This document shows, one piece after another, positions 40,967 through 50,103 of a stretch of 64,000 nt of DNA. Position 1 is the stretch's first letter, and the number at the start of each line of letters is the position of its first letter. The position numbers and the translations under genes are program-made. Under the pieces are notes generated by a model. That model made no database searches. It was not told the origin of the DNA and saw nothing but the letters and a program-made list of their open reading frames with translations. This DNA comes from Niveispirillum cyanobacteriorum. Its GTDB lineage: Bacteria > Pseudomonadota > Alphaproteobacteria > Azospirillales > Azospirillaceae. The stretch lies in contig NZ_CP025611.1 of assembly GCF_002868735.1 (NCBI RefSeq), forward strand, positions 3,118,501 through 3,182,500. Reading direction: 5' to 3'.

Positions 40967-42394
40967 ATGACCCAATATCAGAAGCATTGTGCCCTTCCCG
41001 GGCGTCTTGTGATGGTAGGATTCGGCAGCATCGGTCAAGGTGTGCTGCCTCTGATTCTGCGGCATATCGAAATTGACCGACAGAACATCACCATCATCAC
41101 GGCGGACGAGCGCGGCCACGGTGAGGCTGACTATTTCGGCATCAAGTTCGTCAAGGAACCGCTGACCCGGCAGAATTACCGGGCCATGCTGGAACCCCTG
41201 CTCTCCAAGGGTGATTTCCTGCTCAACCTGTCGGTGGATGTCTCCTCCACGGCCCTGGTGGAGCTGTGCGCCGAACGCGGCGCGCTCTATCTCGACACCT
41301 GTATCGAGCCCTGGCCCGGCGGTTACACCGACCCCAGCCTGTCGCCCTCCATGCGCTCCAACTATGCGCTGCGCGAACAGGCGCTGGCGCTGCGCGGCAA
41401 GCTGGGGACGAAGGCCCCCACCGCCGTGCTGACCCATGGCGCCAATCCGGGCCTTGTCTCCCACTTTGTGAAGCAGGCGCTGCTGAACATTGCCGAGGAT
41501 ACGGGCCGTGATGTCACCGACGTGCCCGCCGACCGCGCCGCCTGGGCCGCCCTGGCCCATGATCTGGGTGTGAAGGTCATCCATATCGCCGAGCGCGACA
41601 CCCAGGTCTCCTCCATTCCGAAAAAGCGGGGGGAGTTCGTCAATACCTGGTCCATCGACGGTTTCATCTCGGAGGGGTGTCAGCCGGCGGAACTGGGCTG
41701 GGGCACGCATGAGGCGACGTTCCCGCCCGACGGCATCCGTCATGATTTCGGCTGTCAGGCCGGCATCATCCTGAACCGCCCCGGCGTGACGCAGCGCGTG
41801 CGCACCTGGACCCCGATGGAAGGCCCCTTCCACGGCTTCCTGATCACGCATAGCGAGGCGCTGTCGATCCCCGATTACCTGACGGTGCGCGACGCGGACG
41901 GCAAGGCGCTTTACCGCCCCACCTGCCACTATGCCTATCATCCCTGCGACGATGCCGTGAAATCCATCCACGAATTCGCCGGCAAGAATTTCGTGCAGCA
42001 GGAAACCCAACGCCTGTTGATGAAGGAAATCATCGACGGCGTGGACGAGTTAGGCGTGCTGCTGGCCGGCCATGAAAAGGGCGCCTACTGGTTCGGCTCC
42101 CAGCTCACCTGCTCCGAGGCCCGCCAGTTGGTGGAATTCAACAGCGCCACCAGCCTGCAGGTCACGGTCGCCGCCTTGTCCGGCATGATCTGGGCCATCG
42201 AAAACCCCGACCGCGGCATCGTCGAAGCCGACGACATGGATTTCCAGCGCTGCCTGGATATCTGCATGCCCTATCTGGGCCCGGTGGTCGGCGCCTACAC
42301 GGACTGGACGCCGCTCGACGGGCGCAACAAGCTGTTCGTGGAAGACGTGGACACGTCCGATCCGTGGCAATTCAAGAATATTCGGGTGGTGTGA
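40967..42394 (+). CDS. hss: Homospermidine synthase
   Basis: 475 residues. Forms sym-homospermidine from two putrescines, NAD-dependent. The Rossmann motif VMVGFGSIGQGVLPLIL (about 15-31) is followed by family blocks ADERGHGEADYFGIKFVKEP, YLDTCIEPWPGGYTD, VLTHGANPGLVSHFVKQAL and CHYAYHPCDDAV. It belongs to the saccharopine-dehydrogenase-like bacterial HSS type common in alphaproteobacteria. The partner decarboxylase upstream supplies putrescine, so the two form a homospermidine pathway. It is convergent with the AT-rich island. Confidence 0.96.
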   Translation: MTQYQKHCALPGRLVMVGFGSIGQGVLPLILRHIEIDRQNITIITADERGHGEADYFGIKFVKEPLTRQNYRAMLEPLLSKGDFLLNLSVDVSSTALVELCAERGALYLDTCIEPWPGGYTDPSLSPSMRSNYALREQALALRGKLGTKAPTAVLTHGANPGLVSHFVKQALLNIAEDTGRDVTDVPADRAAWAALAHDLGVKVIHIAERDTQVSSIPKKRGEFVNTWSIDGFISEGCQPAELGWGTHEATFPPDGIRHDFGCQAGIILNRPGVTQRVRTWTPMEGPFHGFLITHSEALSIPDYLTVRDADGKALYRPTCHYAYHPCDDAVKSIHEFAGKNFVQQETQRLLMKEIIDGVDELGVLLAGHEKGAYWFGSQLTCSEARQLVEFNSATSLQVTVAALSGMIWAIENPDRGIVEADDMDFQRCLDICMPYLGPVVGAYTDWTPLDGRNKLFVEDVDTSDPWQFKNIRVV

Positions 42395-42398
42395 GTGA

Positions 42399-42440
42399 GT
42401 GGGGCAGGGGCCTAGACTATGATACTCTCGGCCCCCACCC
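42399..42440. terminator. Possible hairpin between hss and the island operon
   Basis: AGGGGCC (42407-42412) pairs with GGCCCCC (42430-42436) with extension into GGGG/ACCC. No clear T-run follows. It lies between convergent stop codons, so it may end both transcripts. Confidence 0.3.
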
Positions 42441-42445
42441 GTTGG

Positions 42446-42862
42446 TTACGCAACCACCTTGCGTATTGCATCGACGATACTTTGTGTGTTCCATTTCACA
42501 ATCTCTGATGCTGACTGCTGCACAGCAATAGGAACACGATCAGACCCCCAGGGCAGAACTCCAACTATGGGTTTGCCATATCTCGCGGCTATGTTGATCT
42601 CAGTTTGCATCCAGTCGCTGTGAGCTGCGTACATACCAGATAGCATAACAACTACATTTGATATTCTGATCTGCTCATCAAGAGCACGCAAAAGTTGCTG
42701 ATTTGTTAACCCCTTATCGAAGGCGTCAGTCCTAGGTACAGAGCAGTTTCTCCAACTGAATAGGTTAGCATTATTTAATAGATTTTCTAGTCTCTCGTAA
42801 TCATCATGGTATCTCCACGCATGGCTGATAAAAACCACGTAAGTCTTCAAGTAAGGCATCAT
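42446..42862 (-). CDS. TIR-like (MTH538/ThsB-type) protein
   Basis: 138 residues, a complete single-domain TIR-like protein. The first strand YVVFISHAWRYHDDYERLEN is the MTH538/ThsB signature. Then come LLRALDEQIRISNVVVMLSG and SDWMQTEINIAARYGKPIVG, where Trp84 and Glu88 match the conserved W..E of ThsB-type TIRs, Glu being the usual catalytic residue for NAD cleavage. In Thoeris, such proteins make an NAD-derived signal on infection. The ATG at 42862 (or 42859) overlaps the stop of the upstream gene, preceded by AGGAGG. Strongly AT-rich relative to the chromosome. Confidence 0.85.
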   Translation of the reverse strand: MMPYLKTYVVFISHAWRYHDDYERLENLLNNANLFSWRNCSVPRTDAFDKGLTNQQLLRALDEQIRISNVVVMLSGMYAAHSDWMQTEINIAARYGKPIVGVLPWGSDRVPIAVQQSASEIVKWNTQSIVDAIRKVVA

Positions 42863-44085
42863 TTTCCTCCTACGATATGTCCTATGAAAGAGTTCGCTTC
42901 CAAGAAACTTTCATACTCCCACTCACTCATTTTACTTTTCAGATCTTCAAAATTTTTAAATTTTTCATAATCAGCGTTCGTTGCCCTTAAGCAATTTAGC
43001 TTTGTTGCCATAATCCATTTAGCATCTGATCTTTCACTAAAATCAGACTCTTCCAGAGCGCTTACTATCAAAAGAACTTCTTCAAATATTTTTTGAGCAC
43101 TCATCATGTAGTATCTTTTTTCAACCTTATCCTTTTGGATTTTTGACTTCAAAAGTAGGCAAGTTGCGTAATTTTCTCCGTTATAATAATCTCTACGAAC
43201 TTCATATCCTCTACGATAATAGAAAATTGACTGATTTAAGAATGACTCGTCGTCTGTCGCACTATACAGTCTTTTATTAATAGATCCCGCAATACCCAGA
43301 GTCTCAGGGTCTATACAATTGTCGGGCTCAAGTTTATTAATTATCTCCCTAGCTGAGACCAATGACGAAATAATAGATGGCTGCTTTGACTTATAGGTTG
43401 CAAGCGCTAATTGCTGAACGATGTAAGGATCGTTTGGCCTCCTTGCATGCAAAAGAGACAATGGCTTCAATGCACTAGAGAAGTCTGATTGCCGCATAAA
43501 GGAATTGGCATCCCCGAGGCTGGACTGATAAATCTCCTCAGTTTTCTCCATTCTTTCAATAACTCTCTCCATTTGTTCACTCGATAATATCGGCTGGGTC
43601 AAATTTGGAATATACGTATAAACCGGGCTGTCGTTCTTGGGATTGGACATAACTTCTTCGATTAGATTCTTTAGATCTACCTGGGCGCGAATTGCCTCAG
43701 AATACCCAATATCATCACCCATATGCTTATATTGAAATATATTATTATGACTTAAATCAAAGTATATATTTCCATCCAACTCCTTCATTATTATAGTTGA
43801 GTATGGGCGCATCGTATGCCTCACCCCAAGCTCATAAAGTGCATTTGGATTCCCAGTGGATATATCAGCTATCACCAAGTCTGCCTTTAGGAGAAGGCTG
43901 TACATTTCATTGTCAATTAAACCAGAATGCATGACCTCATCAGCTCTTACGCAGCGCATTCCAGCTCGCTCGACGGCTGGTTTAATGATACATTCATAAG
44001 TTTTATTTAAATCTAACAGGCGACCGCTTGCGGGGTCCAGCTTTTTCCCAAATCCCATTATGACGAAACACACCTTCTCGTCCAC
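42859..44085 (-). CDS. Nucleoside 2-deoxyribosyltransferase-like protein with TPR-like C-terminus
   Basis: 408 residues from a GTG at 44085 (GGGGGA just upstream; the ATG at 44133 has no ribosome site and adds 16 residues). Residues 1-130 resemble the NDT/SLOG-like Rossmann family: CFVIMGFGKK, IIKPAVERAGMRCVRADE, LVIADISTGNPNALYELGVR. Glu85 in YELG sits where the NDT nucleophile lies. The rest is helical, with TPR-like FMRQSDFSSALKPLSLLHAR and many paired helices (the region often called DUF4071 or TRAFs-binding). It is translationally coupled to the TIR gene. AT-rich codon use marks it as acquired. I infer an anti-phage partner role. Confidence 0.75.
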   Translation of the reverse strand: MDEKVCFVIMGFGKKLDPASGRLLDLNKTYECIIKPAVERAGMRCVRADEVMHSGLIDNEMYSLLLKADLVIADISTGNPNALYELGVRHTMRPYSTIIMKELDGNIYFDLSHNNIFQYKHMGDDIGYSEAIRAQVDLKNLIEEVMSNPKNDSPVYTYIPNLTQPILSSEQMERVIERMEKTEEIYQSSLGDANSFMRQSDFSSALKPLSLLHARRPNDPYIVQQLALATYKSKQPSIISSLVSAREIINKLEPDNCIDPETLGIAGSINKRLYSATDDESFLNQSIFYYRRGYEVRRDYYNGENYATCLLLKSKIQKDKVEKRYYMMSAQKIFEEVLLIVSALEESDFSERSDAKWIMATKLNCLRATNADYEKFKNFEDLKSKMSEWEYESFLEANSFIGHIVGGK

Positions 44086-44141
44086 AGCTTTCCCCCGCTT
44101 ACTAGCTGCCTGAAGATGCCTCACTGGAGGCATTAGCCTAT

Positions 44142-44503
44142 TAGTAATAATATATGCACTCCTTCAGCCGATAAGCAACTTGGATAAGCCTGCCGTCAAC
44201 CATAAACATGTTAATAGTGTATGCGCTTAGTGCTTACCGCCACACTTTCAACGAACTACAGTCTCATTGCTATCTATTGGAAAATGCATTCAGTCGTGGA
44301 TAAATAGCACCACTTATGATGGTATGTTTTTCAAACGCCTCTCCCCCGGACATCCGCTGAAACTCTTCATGCTCATGGACAGCGTCGCCTTGCAATCCGA
44401 CGCCCCCATCACGCCGCTTGCGCTTCGCTGCGCCCTGCCCCATATCCAGCGTCGGCGTTAAGCCACCTTCAATGGATGTAAATCGCAGAGCAAGGTGAGA
44501 GAG
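44142..44503. other. Island edge and original htpG upstream region
   Basis: The AT-rich part (to about 44325) holds the operon promoter. At about 44330 composition jumps to GC-rich, suggesting the island boundary; the GC-rich part up to 44503 reads like the 5' flank of htpG. A 64-codon frame at 44267-44461 crosses the composition boundary and is not believable as a gene. No repeat or integrase was seen. Confidence 0.45.
44149..44178 (-). promoter_or_regulatory. Candidate sigma-70 promoter of the island operon
   Basis: Reading the reverse strand: TTGCTT (44178-44173), an 18-base spacer, then TATATT (44154-44149), giving a transcript start near 44142 and a leader of about 57 bases to the GTG. 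A second option upstream is TTGACG with a 17-base spacer and GCTTAT. Prediction by eye only. Confidence 0.35.
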
Positions 44504-44638
44504 ATGAACGAGGAACGGCTCAGTTTCCAGGCCGAGGTCAGCCGCCTGCTCGATATCGTGGCGCACAGCCTCTACTCGGAGAAGAATGTCTTCCTGCGGG
44601 AACTGATCTCCAACGCGTCGGACGCGTACGACCGTTGA
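44504..44638 (+). pseudogene. htpG: Truncated htpG (Hsp90) 5' fragment
   Basis: Start [20 protein letters not shown], then [20 protein letters not shown]: unmistakably the first 40 or so residues of HtpG, the Hsp90 chaperone (the ELISNASDA motif of the ATP site). It stops after 44 codons with TGA right after SDAYDR, where intact HtpG continues with Leu-Arg-Tyr. A good ribosome site (GTGAGAGAG) is kept, so a short peptide could still be made, but the gene lacks over 90 percent of its length. Either htpG was broken here or its 5' end was copied during island insertion. Confidence 0.85.
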
Positions 44639-44811
44639 ACCTATACATGGTCAGGTGTCTACGCGCTTGTGCGGAGCAGTTCCCGGACCATTCTGCCCTC
44701 TCTGAGTTTGCAACAGATCAATCTGAAGGCGGCGGTACCATACTAAACAGAACGGGTGATTTTGATGATCTGGGCACCGGAAGTGATTCCGCAAACCATC
44801 AAAGGGATCAA

Positions 44812-44961
44812 CGTCTGGAACTCTCCCTGCGTGACAGCCAAGCCTTCCTTGAGGCGCTGTTAAACCCGCCGCCGCCCAACGACCGGGTGCGGGAAACGGT
44901 GGCGCGCTATCGTCGGACCATGGGCAACGCCACGATCACGAAAACCCCATCACTGCCCTGA
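44812..44961 (+). pseudogene. DUF1778 antitoxin C-terminal remnant
   Basis: The frame encodes LELSLRDSQAFLEALLNPPP followed by PNDRVRETVARYRRTMG, matching the C-terminal toxin-binding tail of TacA/DUF1778 antitoxins (DSxAFxxALLxPPxPN). The upstream part of the same frame, back to 44635, does not look like the ribbon-helix-helix N-terminus, and no GNAT toxin follows. It is therefore a remnant of a toxin-antitoxin pair at the island edge. Confidence 0.6.
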
Positions 44962-45333
44962 CGCTGTCTGTATCCATGAACGGGCGGTAGCAGGGTTCGG
45001 GCACTTCGTAGCCGCGTGTCGCTCTCCCACCGTCATCCCGGCGAAAGCCGGGACCCAGGGGCGGCAAGCGTCAACATTTCCGCCTGCTTCGCTATCCGCA
45101 GTACTGACGTCGCGCGCATGGCCCCTGGGTCCCGGCTTTCGCCGGGATGACGGGGAAGTGGTGCTTCCCGTAATGGCAAGCCGATCCGGCGGCTGGCGGG
45201 CACGCCCAAGCTCAACCCCCAAACTTCCCCCCGCCATCCATTCCACAACTGACCTACATCATGTCGCTGCCTTGCTACGCAGGGTAGAAGCCCCCGGAAA
45301 TCTGATCATCGAACCAATCCGGGACGTGCTTCC
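44962..45333. other. Intergenic region with a REP pair
   Basis: 372 bases between the antitoxin remnant and the chemoreceptor gene. It is mostly occupied by the REP-like inverted pair at 45029-45155. The last 180 bases should hold the receptor promoter, but none was identified. Confidence 0.5.
45029..45155. repeat. REP-like inverted repeat pair, copy 2
   Basis: A left arm at about 45029-45062 (GTCATCCCGGCGAAAGCCGG core) and its near-exact reverse complement at 45121-45155, around a spacer of about 58 bp. Same arm consensus as the pair at 17571-17701, with an unrelated spacer. It sits at the right edge of the AT-rich island region. Confidence 0.85.
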
Positions 45334-47304
45334 ATGCTGGATCTCCGCCGTCTGCCCGTTGCGGGCAAGGTCACTTTGTTCAATGCGCTGGGGCTGGTGG
45401 TGCTGGGTGCCATCACCCTGACCTTGGGTTACATGGTCATGACCGGGGTGATGGAGCGGCAGGCCGTTGCCACCCAGGCCCTGTCCATGCGGGTGGCCCA
45501 TTCGATTGTGGAGAATGGTGACGATGCCTATGCCCTGGCCGATGGCAAGCTGAGCCAGGGTGGGCGGGTGCTCGATGGTGACATGGCGCTGGTCGATGCG
45601 ATGGCAAAGGCGACGGGCGGCAGCGCCACCATCTTCCGCGGTGACACGCGCGTGGCGACGACGGTCTTGAAGGAGGATGGCAGCCGGGCCGTGGGCACGG
45701 CCCTGGCGGCGGGGCCGGCGCGCGATGCTGTGCTGGGGGCTGGGCAAGCTTATCGCGGCACCGTCGATATCCTGGGCCACACCTATTATGCCGGTTATGA
45801 CCCGTTGAAGGACAAGGATGGCCGGGTTGTCGGCGTGCTCTATGTCGGGCTGAAGAAGGATGACCTGCTGGCGGAATTCAACCGGGGCATCACCTGGATC
45901 GCGCTGGGCGCGCTGGTCCTGACCATCGTGATGTCGGTGTCCGCCCTGGGGCTGGCCCGCTGGCTGCTAGCACCCCTGGGCCGGCTCAGCGCCCGGATGG
46001 ACGGCATGCGCCAGGGAAGGCTGGATCAGCCTGTGCCCGATCTGGACAAGCAGGATGATGTGGGCGAGATGGCCCGCGCCGTGGAAAGCTTCCGCCTGAC
46101 CCTGATGGAGGCCGAGGGCTTGCGGCGGGAGCAGGAGCAGCAGCGACAGAAGGCCGAACAGGCCCGTATTGCCTCGCTGCGCACCATGGCCGACACGGTG
46201 GAGGATGAGACGCGCCACGCCGTCGATGCCGTCGCTGCACAGACCCAGTCCATGGATGCAGAGGCCAAGGTGATGGCCGCCGCCGCCGACCGCATGGGCA
46301 ATAATGCCCAGAACGTGGCCGCCGCCGCCGAACAGGCCCTGGCCAATGCCCAGACGGTGGCATCGGCCACCAACCAACTGACCGCCTCCATCGGCGAAAT
46401 CACGGCCCAGGTGGCCCATGCCAGTGCCGTGACCCGCGACAGCGTGGCCGCCAGCGCCGAGGCCGCGACCGCCATTGAGGCGCTGTCCGACAGCGTCACC
46501 CAGATCGGCGGCATCGCCGACCTGATCGCCGACATTGCGTCGCAGACCAACCTTCTGGCCCTGAACGCCACCATCGAGGCGGCGCGGGCCGGGGAAGCCG
46601 GCAAGGGCTTCGCCGTGGTCGCGTCGGAGGTGAAGAACCTGGCCAGCCAGACAGCACGCGCGACAGAGGATATTGCCCAGCGTATCCAGGGCATCGGCGC
46701 CGTCCGCGACCGGGCCGTCACCGCCGTCAACGACATCACCCATCAGATCCAGCAGGTGGATCAGGTGGCCGCCGGCATCGCGGCGGCGATGGAGGAACAA
46801 TCCGCCGCCACCACCGAAATCGCCCGCAATGTCGAACAGACCGCCGACGCCGCCCGCGAAGTGGCCGCACGCATTGCCGAGGTATCGGCGGAGGCGGCAC
46901 AGACCGACCGCTGCGCCAATGATGTACAGACCGCCGCCCACCAGATGGCGGACAGTGTCGAACATCTGCGCGAAACGCTGGTCCGTGTGGTCCGTACCGC
47001 GTCGGCCGATGTGGACCGGCGCCGCCGCCCGCGCTTTGCCGTGTCGATCCCGTGTCAGGTGGAACAGGGCGGGCGCAGCCTGTCGGGCCAGGTCGTGAAC
47101 CTGTCGGAAGGCGGGGCCATGCTGGCGGTGGAGGGCATTACGGCGACACCGGGTGTGCTCTTGCTGGCCGGCCTGCGCCTGCCCTTCCGTACGCCGGAAC
47201 AGGCACAGGGTGCCGGCCATGTGAAATTCACCCTGACGGAGGCAGAGGCGACGGCATTCCGCAACCGTTTTGCGGGCCTGACGGCGGGGGCAGTGGCAGC
47301 GTGA
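45334..47304 (+). CDS. Methyl-accepting chemotaxis protein with C-terminal PilZ domain
   Basis: 656-residue membrane chemoreceptor. TM1 is at about 12-36, followed by a periplasmic single-Cache-type sensor domain (to about 185, with [20 protein letters not shown]) and TM2 at about 188-210. HAMP follows ([20 protein letters not shown]), then a signalling domain with the hairpin tip [20 protein letters not shown] continuing [11 protein letters not shown]. The C-terminal PilZ domain (about 560-650) has [13 protein letters not shown] and NLSEGGAML, matching the RxxxR and D/NxSxxG c-di-GMP motifs. Azospirillum Tlp1 has the same architecture, linking chemotaxis to c-di-GMP. The ligand is unknown. 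Confidence 0.93.
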
Positions 47305-47426: not shown

Positions 47427-48773
47427 ATGCCAGTGTCGGGTCGGATGGGGGTGAAGCGGGTGGGGACGGGGCTGCTGGCGGCACTGGTATTGCCATTCCT
47501 GATGGCCCCGGCCAGTGCGCAGAATGCGGCCACGCCCGACATTCCCGCCTATATCAAATCCGACGTAAAGGCGCTGGAGGCCAAGATCGTGGCCTGGCGC
47601 CGCGATATCCATCAGCACCCCGAACTGGGTAACCGCGAGACGCGGACGGCCAAGCTGGTGGCCGATCACCTGAAGAAGCTGGGCATGGAGGTTCAGACGG
47701 GCGTGGCTCATACTGGTGTCGTGGCCGTGCTGAAAGGGGCCAAGCCCGGCCCGGTCGTGGCCCTGCGCGCCGATATGGATGCGCTGCCCGTGACGGAGCA
47801 GGTGGACCTGCCCTTCGCGTCGAAGGTCCGCACCACCTATAACGGCCAGGATGTGGGCGTCATGCATGCCTGCGGCCATGACGGTCATGTGGCCATCCTG
47901 ATGGGCGTGGCGGAGTTGCTGGCCAAGCGCAAAGGCGAGCTGCGCGGCACCGTGAAGTTCATCTTCCAGCCGGCGGAGGAAGGCCCGCCAGAGGGGGAGC
48001 AGGGCGGTGCCGAACTGATGATCAAGCAGGGCGTGCTGTCCACGGACCCCAAGCCGGAAGCGATCTTCGGCCTGCACCTGTTCTCTGCCGGTCGCGCTGG
48101 GACCATCAGTTACCGTTCCGGTCCCGCCATGGCGGCGGCCGACAGTTTCCACATCACGGTGCAGGGCCGACAGACGCATGGGGCCTATCCCTGGGCCGGG
48201 GTCGATCCCATCGTGACGGCGTCACAGATCGTGACCGGCCTGCAAACCATCGTCAGTCGCAACGTCGAACTGATCAAGGAGCCAGCCATCGTGTCGGTCG
48301 GCGCGCTGAATAGCGGCGTGCGCGACAATATCATCCCTGACAAGGCAGAGATGATCGGCACCATCCGTACCTATGATCCCAAGATGCGCGACCAGATTCA
48401 CCGCCGCATCAAGGAGATTGCGGAGAATATCGCCGAAAGTCAGGGGGCCACGGCGACGGTGCATATCGACCCGGGCTATCCCGTTACCGACAATAACCCC
48501 GCGCTGACCGCCTGGGCTGCCCCCATCCTGGAAAAGGTGGCTGGGGCGGGCAATGTCTCCATCGGGCCAAAGGCCGGCGGGGCCGAGGATTTCAGCTATT
48601 TCCAGCAGCAGATCCCGGGCTTCTTCTTCTGGGTTGGGTCCACCGGACCCGACGTGCCGCTGGACAAGGCGCCCAGCAACCATTCGCCCCTGTATAAGGT
48701 GGATGAGGCATCCTTGCTGACCGGGGCGGAGGCGCTGGCCGCCGTCACCGTTGCCTATCTGCAAAGCCGTTGA
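47427..48773 (+). CDS. Secreted M20D amidohydrolase, paralogue 1
   Basis: 448-residue member of the M20D family (hippurate hydrolase / IAA-amino acid hydrolase / N-acyl-amino-acid amidohydrolase). A signal peptide (ending APASA) is followed by IVAWRRDIHQHPELGNRETR. Metal ligands are in MHACGHDGHVAILMG, PAEEGPPEGEQGGAEL and GGAEDFSYFQQQIPGFFFWV. It should cleave amide bonds of N-acyl or conjugated amino acids in the periplasm. It is the first of three tandem, closely similar copies (48790, 50116). GGAGA precedes the start. Confidence 0.93.
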   Translation: MPVSGRMGVKRVGTGLLAALVLPFLMAPASAQNAATPDIPAYIKSDVKALEAKIVAWRRDIHQHPELGNRETRTAKLVADHLKKLGMEVQTGVAHTGVVAVLKGAKPGPVVALRADMDALPVTEQVDLPFASKVRTTYNGQDVGVMHACGHDGHVAILMGVAELLAKRKGELRGTVKFIFQPAEEGPPEGEQGGAELMIKQGVLSTDPKPEAIFGLHLFSAGRAGTISYRSGPAMAAADSFHITVQGRQTHGAYPWAGVDPIVTASQIVTGLQTIVSRNVELIKEPAIVSVGALNSGVRDNIIPDKAEMIGTIRTYDPKMRDQIHRRIKEIAENIAESQGATATVHIDPGYPVTDNNPALTAWAAPILEKVAGAGNVSIGPKAGGAEDFSYFQQQIPGFFFWVGSTGPDVPLDKAPSNHSPLYKVDEASLLTGAEALAAVTVAYLQSR

Positions 48774-48789
48774 GGCAGGGGTGGGAACG

Positions 48790-50103
48790 ATGCGCACCAT
48801 CCTGCTGACCGGTGCGGCCCTGGCCGCCCTGTTCCTGCCGTCCGTGGCCATGGCTGCTGATGCCCCGCCCGTGCCCGCCTATGTGATGGCGGATGCCAAG
48901 GCGCTGGAGGCCAAGATCATCGCTTGGCGGCGCGACATCCACCAGCATCCCGAACTGGGCAACCGGGAGGTGCGGACCGCCAAGCTGGTGGCCGATCACC
49001 TGAAAAAGCTGGGGCTGGAGGTACAGACCGGGGTGGCCCATACCGGCGTGGTTGCCGTGCTGCGGGGGGCCAAGCCCGGCCCCGTGGTGGCGCTGCGCGC
49101 CGATATGGATGCGCTGCCCGTTGCCGAACGCGTGGACCTGCCCTTCGCATCGAAGGTGCGTACCAATTACAACGGCAAGGATGTGGGGGTGATGCATGCC
49201 TGCGGGCACGACACCCATGTCGCCATCCTGATGGGCGTGGCCGAACTGCTGACCAAGCGGAGGGCGGAGCTGCCGGGCACGGTGAAGTTCATCTTCCAGC
49301 CGGCGGAAGAAGGCGCGCCGGCGGGGGAGGAGGGCGGGGCCGAACTGATGATCAAGCAGGGCGTTCTGTCCACCGATCCCAAGCCACAGGCCATTTTCGG
49401 CCTGCATGTCGGCTCGGATGATCATATCGGCCAGGTCTCCTACCGGCCCGGCCCCGTGATGGCCGCGTCCGACACGTTCCGCATCAAGGTGAAGGGCAAG
49501 CAGACGCACGGGGCCTATCCCTGGGCCGGGACCGATCCCATCGTTGCGGCGTCGGCCATCGTCACGGGGCTGCAAACCATCGTCAGCCGCAATCTGGAAC
49601 TGATCAAGGAACCGGCGGTGGTGTCGGTGGGGGCCATCAATGGCGGCGTGCGCAGCAATATCATCCCCGACGAAACCGACCTGATCGGCACCATCCGCAC
49701 CCTTGATCCCGCCATGCGCGAGCAGGTCCATCGCCGGCTGAAGGAGGTGGCGACCGGCATCGCCGCCGCCCATGGTGCGGTGGCAGAGGTGGAGATCGAC
49801 CTTGGCTATCCCGTCACCGTCAATGACAAGGACCTGACCGCCTGGGCCGTGCCCGTGCTGGAACAGGTGGCCGGCAAGGACAAGGTCAGCCTGGCGCCCA
49901 AGGGGCTGGCGGCGGAGGATTTCAGCTTTTATCAGCAAAAAATCCCCGGCTTCTATTTCTTCATCGGTGTCACAGACCCCGCTGTGCCGCTGGATCAGGC
50001 GCCCGCCAACCATTCACCCTTGTTCAAGGTGGATGAACGCGGCCTGCTGGTCGGGGCGCAGTCCATGGCGGCCCTGACCGTCGCCTATCTTTCCTCCCAC
50101 TGA
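48790..50103 (+). CDS. Secreted M20D amidohydrolase, paralogue 2
   Basis: 437 residues. Signal peptide MRTILLTGAALAALFLPSVA; mature part begins at ADAPPVPAYVMADAKALEAK. Same fold and motifs as its neighbours, but the Asp-His metal loop reads HACGHDTHVAILMG (Thr for Gly) and the C-terminal loop is EDFSFYQQKIPGFYFFIG, so substrate range may differ. The start at 48790 begins the signal peptide; an upstream start at 48751 would overlap the preceding gene. It lies 16 bases after paralogue 1, so the three genes form an operon. Confidence 0.93.
   Translation: MRTILLTGAALAALFLPSVAMAADAPPVPAYVMADAKALEAKIIAWRRDIHQHPELGNREVRTAKLVADHLKKLGLEVQTGVAHTGVVAVLRGAKPGPVVALRADMDALPVAERVDLPFASKVRTNYNGKDVGVMHACGHDTHVAILMGVAELLTKRRAELPGTVKFIFQPAEEGAPAGEEGGAELMIKQGVLSTDPKPQAIFGLHVGSDDHIGQVSYRPGPVMAASDTFRIKVKGKQTHGAYPWAGTDPIVAASAIVTGLQTIVSRNLELIKEPAVVSVGAINGGVRSNIIPDETDLIGTIRTLDPAMREQVHRRLKEVATGIAAAHGAVAEVEIDLGYPVTVNDKDLTAWAVPVLEQVAGKDKVSLAPKGLAAEDFSFYQQKIPGFYFFIGVTDPAVPLDQAPANHSPLFKVDERGLLVGAQSMAALTVAYLSSH

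Follow-up and report, generated by a model that had tools for sequence, protein, structure and literature searches.

TIR proteins are of a type that often cuts NAD. Systems built around TPR-S, Pfam's own named family of 'Tetratricopeptide Repeats-Sensor', were reportedly predicted by Burroughs and Aravind in 2020; in these, TPR-S is said to read NAD-derived signals, and the entry of TPR-S into the animal ASK signalosome was reportedly predicted in the same work. In Thoeris types I, II and IV, TIRs (PMC12847820) feed SIR2, TM-macro and caspase effectors. Swarozyc (DUF4062; PMC13174449) resembles the pair reported here in that a TIR-like enzyme directed at NAD is combined with an auxiliary part, and it acts by abortive infection; it differs in being a single protein of another family, and TPR or DUF4071 wording is absent from the main text of that paper. 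In Caenorhabditis elegans, TIR-1, the SARM1 orthologue, acts through NSY-1, the counterpart of ASK1 (PMC8295901). We found no experiments on a TIR/TPR-S pair such as the one described here in the literature searched, from which most subscription papers were absent. DUF4071, the older name of TPR-S, appeared in that literature in animal papers and with an Arcobacter plasmid.

Here we describe a ThsB-like TIR gene and a TPR-S gene that overlap in Niveispirillum cyanobacteriorum. We think it probable that the pair serves as an alarm and effector against viruses, a kind of system that sequence analysis had predicted before. Its component families are already known; new here are the counts of partner swapping, the structural comparison and the residue surveys.

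An overlapping gene pair in AT-rich DNA

In the window, the 64,000-nucleotide stretch of N. cyanobacteriorum DNA that was analysed, two intact, overlapping open reading frames (ORFs) lie on the minus strand. The TIR gene (42446–42862; 138 amino acids, tandem ATG ATG start) is downstream of the partner gene (42859–44085), which encodes an NDT/DrHyd-like–TPR-S protein of 408 amino acids from a GTG at 44085. An alternative ATG at 44133 would give 424 amino acids, but the GTG is the likelier start because GGGGGA lies upstream of it and most homologues start near the equivalent place. The start ATG of the TIR gene overlaps the partner stop TGA as ATGA, and the sequence directly ahead of that ATG is GTAGGAGGAAA. 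An earlier note on this DNA had described both ORFs, the overlap and an AT-rich operon, all of which are present (G+C of 40.6% across 42446–44178, compared with 63.5% for the window). It had also credited the operon with a promoter-like sequence of its own, which was not supported: a scan of 42300–44600 gave 3 sigma-70-like sites against 4.6 ± 2.5 in shuffles, and none of them was upstream of either operon start codon.

The pair is bordered on one side by a gene with saccharopine-dehydrogenase-type domains (40967–42394; Pfam), the product of which we take to be homospermidine-synthase-like, and on the other side by a chemoreceptor gene (45334–47304; Pfam). The broken genes that the note had seen beside the operon are a partial duplicate at 44411–44634, which is 92% identical to G000:C1:2120098-2120322 of the same genome, and a TacA1-like antitoxin remnant at 44635–44958 (PF08681, E = 2.8e-6), both on the plus strand and outside the system. 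The duplicate contains a 44-codon ORF without a Pfam match that, judged by motif, presumably corresponds to the start of HtpG.

The preceding, saccharopine-dehydrogenase-type gene is present in all 11 genomes of the genus searched (own included), and sister genomes have relatives of 44807–44925 on the downstream side of it. The DNA of the pair itself has no blastn match in the available stretches, some of them short, of the ten other genomes, and in one sister genome the matching DNA ahead of the chemoreceptor gene resumes about 760 bases past the end of the preceding gene, compared with a distance of about 2.8 kb in the window. We take the pair to be an apparently late arrival at this site. 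Of 59 genomes searched, 6 have a partner match; one of these is the genome of the window, and the matches in the five others are weak and partial.

The TIR protein and its partner

The TIR protein matches Pfam ThsB_TIR (PF08937, E = 5.7e-17) and PADLOC ThsB (E = 7.2e-18). A profile of 30 aligned TIRs, comprising that of the window and 29 of 31 others (the duplicate in L063 and the partial sequence in L029 were left out), matches a Bacillus cereus TIR, MTH538, and the ThsB chains 9b7d and 6lhy. The predicted structure (pLDDT of 89.8) aligns with ThsB 6lhy over 114 residues in VIA (Z = 13.5, rmsd of 2.2). By the same measure its likeness to NDT enzymes is about as great as that to ThsB (Z from 14.8 to 13.5), which is expected because the TIR, DrHyd and SLOG folds are related (PMC9503650). 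In the TIR alignment, Ser13, Gly76, Ser82, Trp84, Glu88 and Ala92 do not vary (30 of 30 sequences). Both the ThsB likeness and the conservation of Trp84 (codon 42611–42613, minus strand) and of the putatively catalytic Glu88 (codon 42599–42601, minus strand), which had been read from the letters beforehand, therefore hold up.

The partner had been described as a deoxyribosyltransferase/TPR protein standing in place of ThsA. The TPR part of that description was confirmed and can be named: the partner matches Pfam TPR-S (PF20308, E = 4.4e-21; 75.8 bits against a gathering cut-off of 27.6), with the domain at residues 203–310 (43156–43479, minus strand; E = 4.2e-21), and it also passes MAP3K_TRAF_bd (E = 5e-7; 29.5 bits against a cut-off of 24.1). 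The whole C-terminal helical/TPR array, delimited by predicted structure and the match to ASK1 5ulm, spans residues 169–406 (42868–43581, minus strand). With a TPR part of a named family and a likeness to ASK1, the protein is accordingly not an unrecognised partner. In an alignment of 61 partners (that of the window and 60 of 75 eligible relatives, the other 15 being omitted on visual inspection because they looked close to retained sequences), TPR-S is found in 61 of 61 and MAP3K_TRAF_bd in 57 of 61. The absence of the canonical ThsA types, as first noted, also stands: the 424-amino-acid form of the partner has no SIR2, SLOG, macro, caspase or kinase match in Pfam at E up to 1, and the remaining row is a sub-threshold BCNT match.

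The N-terminal domain (about residues 1–150; 43636–44085, minus strand) is a putative NDT/DNPH1-like (DrHyd) Rossmannoid domain, on the basis of predicted secondary structure and a weak DNPH1/Rcl profile. In the partner model (pLDDT of 91.9, pTM of 0.76), its main strands alternate with helices and are followed by the long helical array. DNPH1/Rcl fills 11 of 12 rows of the N-domain profile search, all of them weak (E = 0.031 to 0.63), and in these the YELG motif with Glu85 aligns over the YELG of DNPH1/Rcl. The single best row, an ORF016 chain (E = 0.02), was taken as chance. Pfam Nuc_deoxyrib_tr matches 1 of the 61 partner relatives, the PADLOC model 'Effector, TIR' matches the N-domain at E = 5.4e-9, and the VIA list for the whole partner model consists mostly of TPR rows, so that it barely probed this domain. 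The identity of the N-domain leans weakly towards NDT/DNPH1; of the earlier description of an NDT/SLOG-like N terminus, the alternating strands and helices and the NDT side are retained, and the SLOG fold is without Pfam support. Asp74, Asn79, Asn81, Glu85, Arg89 and His90 are among the residues that are invariant in 61 of 61 partners, and Asp69 is kept in at least 90% of them. Glu85 (codon 43831–43833, minus strand), the putatively catalytic residue of YELG, had been numbered in a way that fits the GTG start.

Likeness to ASK1

The best Foldseek match of the partner model is ASK1 8qgy (E = 9.2e-6, 443 columns), and only two PDB chains, both of this ASK1 entry, score E up to 0.001. In VIA, the TPR part aligns with the ASK1 central region 5ulm over 203 residues (Z = 19.4, rmsd of 2.7), and the row after it has a Z of 15.5. 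The 8qgy alignment takes in 340 residues over model positions 8–408, whereas the helical array has 238. This suggests, rather than settles, that the N-domains of ASK1 and the partner are also alike and that a TBD-like domain precedes the TPR array, because the rmsd is 17.3 and the Z of 15.2 is level with ordinary TPR rows. The partner thus shares with the regulatory half of ASK1 (MAP3K5) a TPR array of ASK1 type, as seen in the 5ulm alignment and the MAP3K_TRAF_bd matches; it differs in having no kinase domain (Pfam, E up to 1) and in an N-domain that keeps an invariant Glu.

Recurrence of the pair

Relatives of the partner occur at no fewer than 580 places in many phyla. We surveyed 80 loci, which are the best-scoring of the at least 580 and not a random draw; by record titles they include, for example, Pseudomonadota, Bacteroidota, Bacillota, Mycoplasmatota and Lentisphaerae. 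The earlier note had set a neighbourhood survey beforehand as a test that could refute the pairing, and the association recurs. Among 78 genes that lie no more than 150 bp from the partner on its strand, 54 match Pfam ThsB_TIR, compared with at most 1 of 78 distant genes of the same loci, a count that rests on the 25 of 96 Pfam families among the matches listed; these controls were drawn at random from 151 genes that are 4.5 kb or more away. For TIR_2 the corresponding counts are 34 of 78 and 2 of 78, and for the commonest PADLOC ThsB model they are 46 of 78 and 2 of 78. Matches to TIR thin out with distance: 49 of 133 genes no more than 300 bp away have one, compared with 6 of 433 genes at 4–8.5 kb.

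With a TIR profile from five seeds, 63 loci that have a partner of 390–444 amino acids were compared: 47 carry a TIR no more than 1 kb away, 42 have it within 150 bp and on the same strand, and in 31 it is downstream, as in the window. Shorter partners have a TIR within 1 kb in 1 of 4 loci, and partners of 445 amino acids or more, a class kept apart, have a TIR match within that distance in 0 of 13. When a wider TIR cluster, built by single linkage, and distances of up to 3 kb are allowed, 57 of 67 loci have a member; among the 10 that lack one, L026 and L051 have another kind of TIR next door.

Protein distances among partners and among TIRs are correlated (r = 0.67, n = 18; reached in 0 of 5,000 permutations) across 17 loci with a same-strand TIR that starts FISH/FVSH within 300 bp, together with the window, a correlation to which common descent of the hosts could add. 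Without a duplicate and a fragment (L063 and L069), r is 0.68 (n = 16). The TIR and partner genes form a unit, and the two proteins diverge in step.

Plasmid records match the partner 80 times, in 39 cases over at least 80% of its length. Of 14 plasmid stretches, nine have an annotated TIR gene directly beside the partner, once on the other strand; in the other five, the neighbours are an insertion sequence, a patatin gene with a hypothetical gene, DUF4231 (twice) and hypothetical genes. One copy is on a 9.8-kb plasmid with mobility, toxin–antitoxin and unnamed genes, and a Klebsiella-type copy is present in 2 of 5,426 Escherichia coli genomes, both times on plasmids. Phage records match the partner 34 times, never over 80% of its length, and the 20 of these 34 matches that are listed cover about 22–37% of the partner, in the N-domain. 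Of the 80 IMG/VR loci retained from 187, L102, L103, L105 and L106 carry the partner at nearly full length, and three of these four have a TIR match close by. In a survey of 398 genomes, the tally of 124 with TPR-S is not a prevalence, because matches weaker than about 1e-7 look like ordinary TPRs. A search for a ThsA-like STALD/SLOG protein elsewhere in the genome matched none, and the same search matched no control genome either.

Exchange of partners on both sides

Relatives of the TIR have varied neighbours. A Thiolapillus plasmid carries a TIR that is 43% identical to that of the window 8 bases before a caspase-domain gene, a likeness to Thoeris type IV. In Yersinia aleksiciae, the TIR faces a SLATT protein on the opposite strand. 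A haloarchaeal plasmid has a longer TIR protein (253 amino acids) beside an 8xMP membrane protein, next to which a TIR is also found in one further genome, and a row of genes in Klebsiella variicola reads annotated tetratricopeptide protein, TIR, TIR and DUF4231. There is no clear partner in two (L238 and L241) of the six TIR plasmid stretches. When TIR genes are taken as the starting point, ten places were found in eight other genomes. Four of these places, in three of the genomes, have a TPR-S gene nearby, another adjoins 8xMP and another adjoins an apparently membrane-bound protein; at the remaining places no partner could be named.

The TPR-S domain is likewise joined to different heads. 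We found fusions of TPR-S to an alpha/beta-hydrolase (over the Pfam cut-off in L023, L227 and L229, just under it in L226 and weak in L024), to patatin (L228, L230 and L231) and to trypsin (L232). Ten of the stretches compared had been picked for strong or tandem TPR-S matches and are therefore not a sample. Eight of these nine fusion genes directly adjoin a DrHyd-TPR-S gene. The surveyed stretch around DrHyd-TPR-S is without a TIR match in L227, which has a NARF-domain neighbour, and in L230 and L231; L228 seems to lack a TIR, but has one at the contig end. Of the best 80 among the at least 580 loci, 16 have a SLATT/DUF4231-like cluster no more than 3 kb away and 5 have one that is patatin-like, names that we assume from single Pfam matches and a motif. 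Swappable catalytic heads on TPR-S, together with a TIR that has exchangeable partners, are arranged in the way of an enzyme that makes a signal and the effectors that it serves.

Proposed mechanism and alternatives

We put the probability at roughly 0.5 that the pair is a Thoeris-like anti-phage module in which TPR-S reads a signal that the TIR derives from NAD, and the NDT-like domain is the effector. As a two-gene module acquired horizontally, it would depend on the small TIR protein to sense infection and to turn NAD+ into a signal of ADP-ribose type. On binding this signal, the TPR-S array would switch on the N-terminal NDT-like domain, which may attack NAD+ or (deoxy)nucleotides, and the infected cell would stop before phage is made. 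We infer the defence role, the direction from TIR to TPR-S, the identity of the signal and the target of the effector. Several findings count against the model: 5 of 14 plasmid stretches, 10 of 67 loci by the cluster measure and all 13 loci with longer partners lack a nearby TIR of the kind sought, fewer than half of the ten places reached from TIR genes are near TPR-S, and the NDT-like assignment of the N-domain is weak by sequence. Placing the TIR first in the order is, in our judgement, evenly balanced, and the signalling model appears to be the better of several because partners are swapped on both the TIR side and the TPR-S side.

In a reverse, CBASS-like order, which we consider unlikely, DrHyd-TPR-S would be the constant sensor and signal maker, and the TIR would be a swappable NADase effector in a slot that is filled elsewhere by patatin, hydrolase or SLATT proteins. 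The DrHyd domain might indeed make a signal, given L227, L230 and L231, in which DrHyd-TPR-S has TPR-S-patatin or hydrolase-TPR-S neighbours and no TIR match, and the nearby SLATT/DUF4231-like and patatin-like clusters fit the same order. However, the SLATT proteins may belong to a neighbouring second TIR, and the TIR at the contig end of L228 weakens the case from apparently TIR-less loci. The TIR is, moreover, a domain of about 134 amino acids with no sensor of its own, and its relatives have quite different neighbours, without TPR-S. The close coupling of the two genes and their correlated divergence could also suit a standing TIR/TPR-S complex with no diffusible signal, in which a phage protein on the TPR array, perhaps acting on the DrHyd domain as well, would release or assemble the TIR NADase. 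Published accounts describe features that favour such a complex: in ASK1, the N-domain of one protomer packs against the TPR domain of the second (PMC10972558), and other TIR-type NADases are triggered directly by phage structural proteins (PMC13174449 and PMC12847820). We nevertheless doubt it, because the fusion of TPR-S to several unrelated catalytic domains and the occurrence of TIR relatives beside other partners suit an exchangeable signal better.

A role outside defence is very unlikely. The pair would then serve nucleotide salvage or housekeeping, or act as an addiction module on mobile DNA, which would be in keeping with the NDT/DNPH1-like folds (of the TIR model and, weakly, of the partner N-domain) and with plasmid carriage, including the 9.8-kb plasmid with its mobility and toxin–antitoxin genes; the sporadic presence of the partner among the 59 genomes and the combination of a ThsB-type TIR with a named sensor family argue against it.

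Discussion

Like Thoeris, the pair has a ThsB-type TIR with a catalytic-type Glu (Glu88) in a two-gene operon. It differs in the second gene: ThsA has SIR2-SLOG, TM-macro or caspase, and the partner here is DrHyd-TPR-S, which has no such match in Pfam. As judged from its domains, the pair is not Thoeris by definition, since it has no known ThsA type, although it probably works like Thoeris. With the TPR-S systems that Burroughs and Aravind reportedly predicted, it shares the Pfam TPR-S domain, which all aligned relatives have. The novelty is modest, because the link between TPR-S, NAD-derived signals and ASK is said to have been predicted in 2020.

A further, tentative proposal, which we regard as somewhat improbable, is that DrHyd-TPR-S is an uncharacterised class of effector that takes the place of ThsA and answers to a signal made from NAD by the TIR, and that wiring of a bacterial TIR to an ASK1-like protein is the ancestor of the animal pathway from TIR-1/SARM1 to NSY-1/ASK1. 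If the signalling model is true, one TIR family would drive several unrelated types of effector, one of which is like the regulatory half of ASK1. If the wiring is ancestral, the N-terminal half of ASK1 would descend from a reader of molecules derived from NAD and may still act as one. The compact bacterial pair would offer a direct way to ask whether TPR arrays of ASK1 type sense an NAD-derived molecule.

Genes and repeats beside the pair

In the sister genomes L187, L188 and L190, a stretch resembling the TacA1-like antitoxin remnant (44635-44958) lies downstream of the same gene that precedes the TIR and DrHyd-TPR-S pair here (40967-42394, with saccharopine-dehydrogenase-type domains), and the remnant is therefore probably older than the insert. 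Adjoining the remnant is a partial duplicate (44411-44634) with a 92% match to positions 2120098-2120322 of the same genome's contig; it contains a stop-terminated ORF of 44 codons, which we take to resemble the start of HtpG. A perfect inverted repeat with 33-base arms separated by 58 bases (45030-45153) is perhaps an intergenic repeat element. Further along are two tandem and seemingly very similar ORFs of around 450 amino acids each (47427-48773 and 48751-50103), the first of which encodes an M20-type peptidase/amidohydrolase.

Related domains in other genomes and phages

Among the matches listed, protein matches in Staphylococcus and Streptococcus phage records are confined to the DrHyd-like N-terminal domain of the partner, as are those in many IMG/VR contigs (L107-L181). 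A ThsB-type TIR gene adjoins a gene for an octameric membrane protein (8xMP) on a haloarchaeal plasmid and in another genome (L236 and L248), in what looks like a further pairing of a TIR with an effector. At L026:6925-10813, a gene encoding the C-terminal sensor domain, TPR-S, is flanked on both sides by genes with seemingly similar starts; the first encodes a cyclic-nucleotide-binding plus Pycsar-type TIR protein.

Genomes recorded under names of Bacteroidota carry a longer TPR-S branch of 446-466 amino acids (L090-L094, L096-L099 and L101), and no TIR match was found within 1 kb of these genes. Neighbouring genes are common to L090-L093, and the branch may have a settled role on the chromosome.
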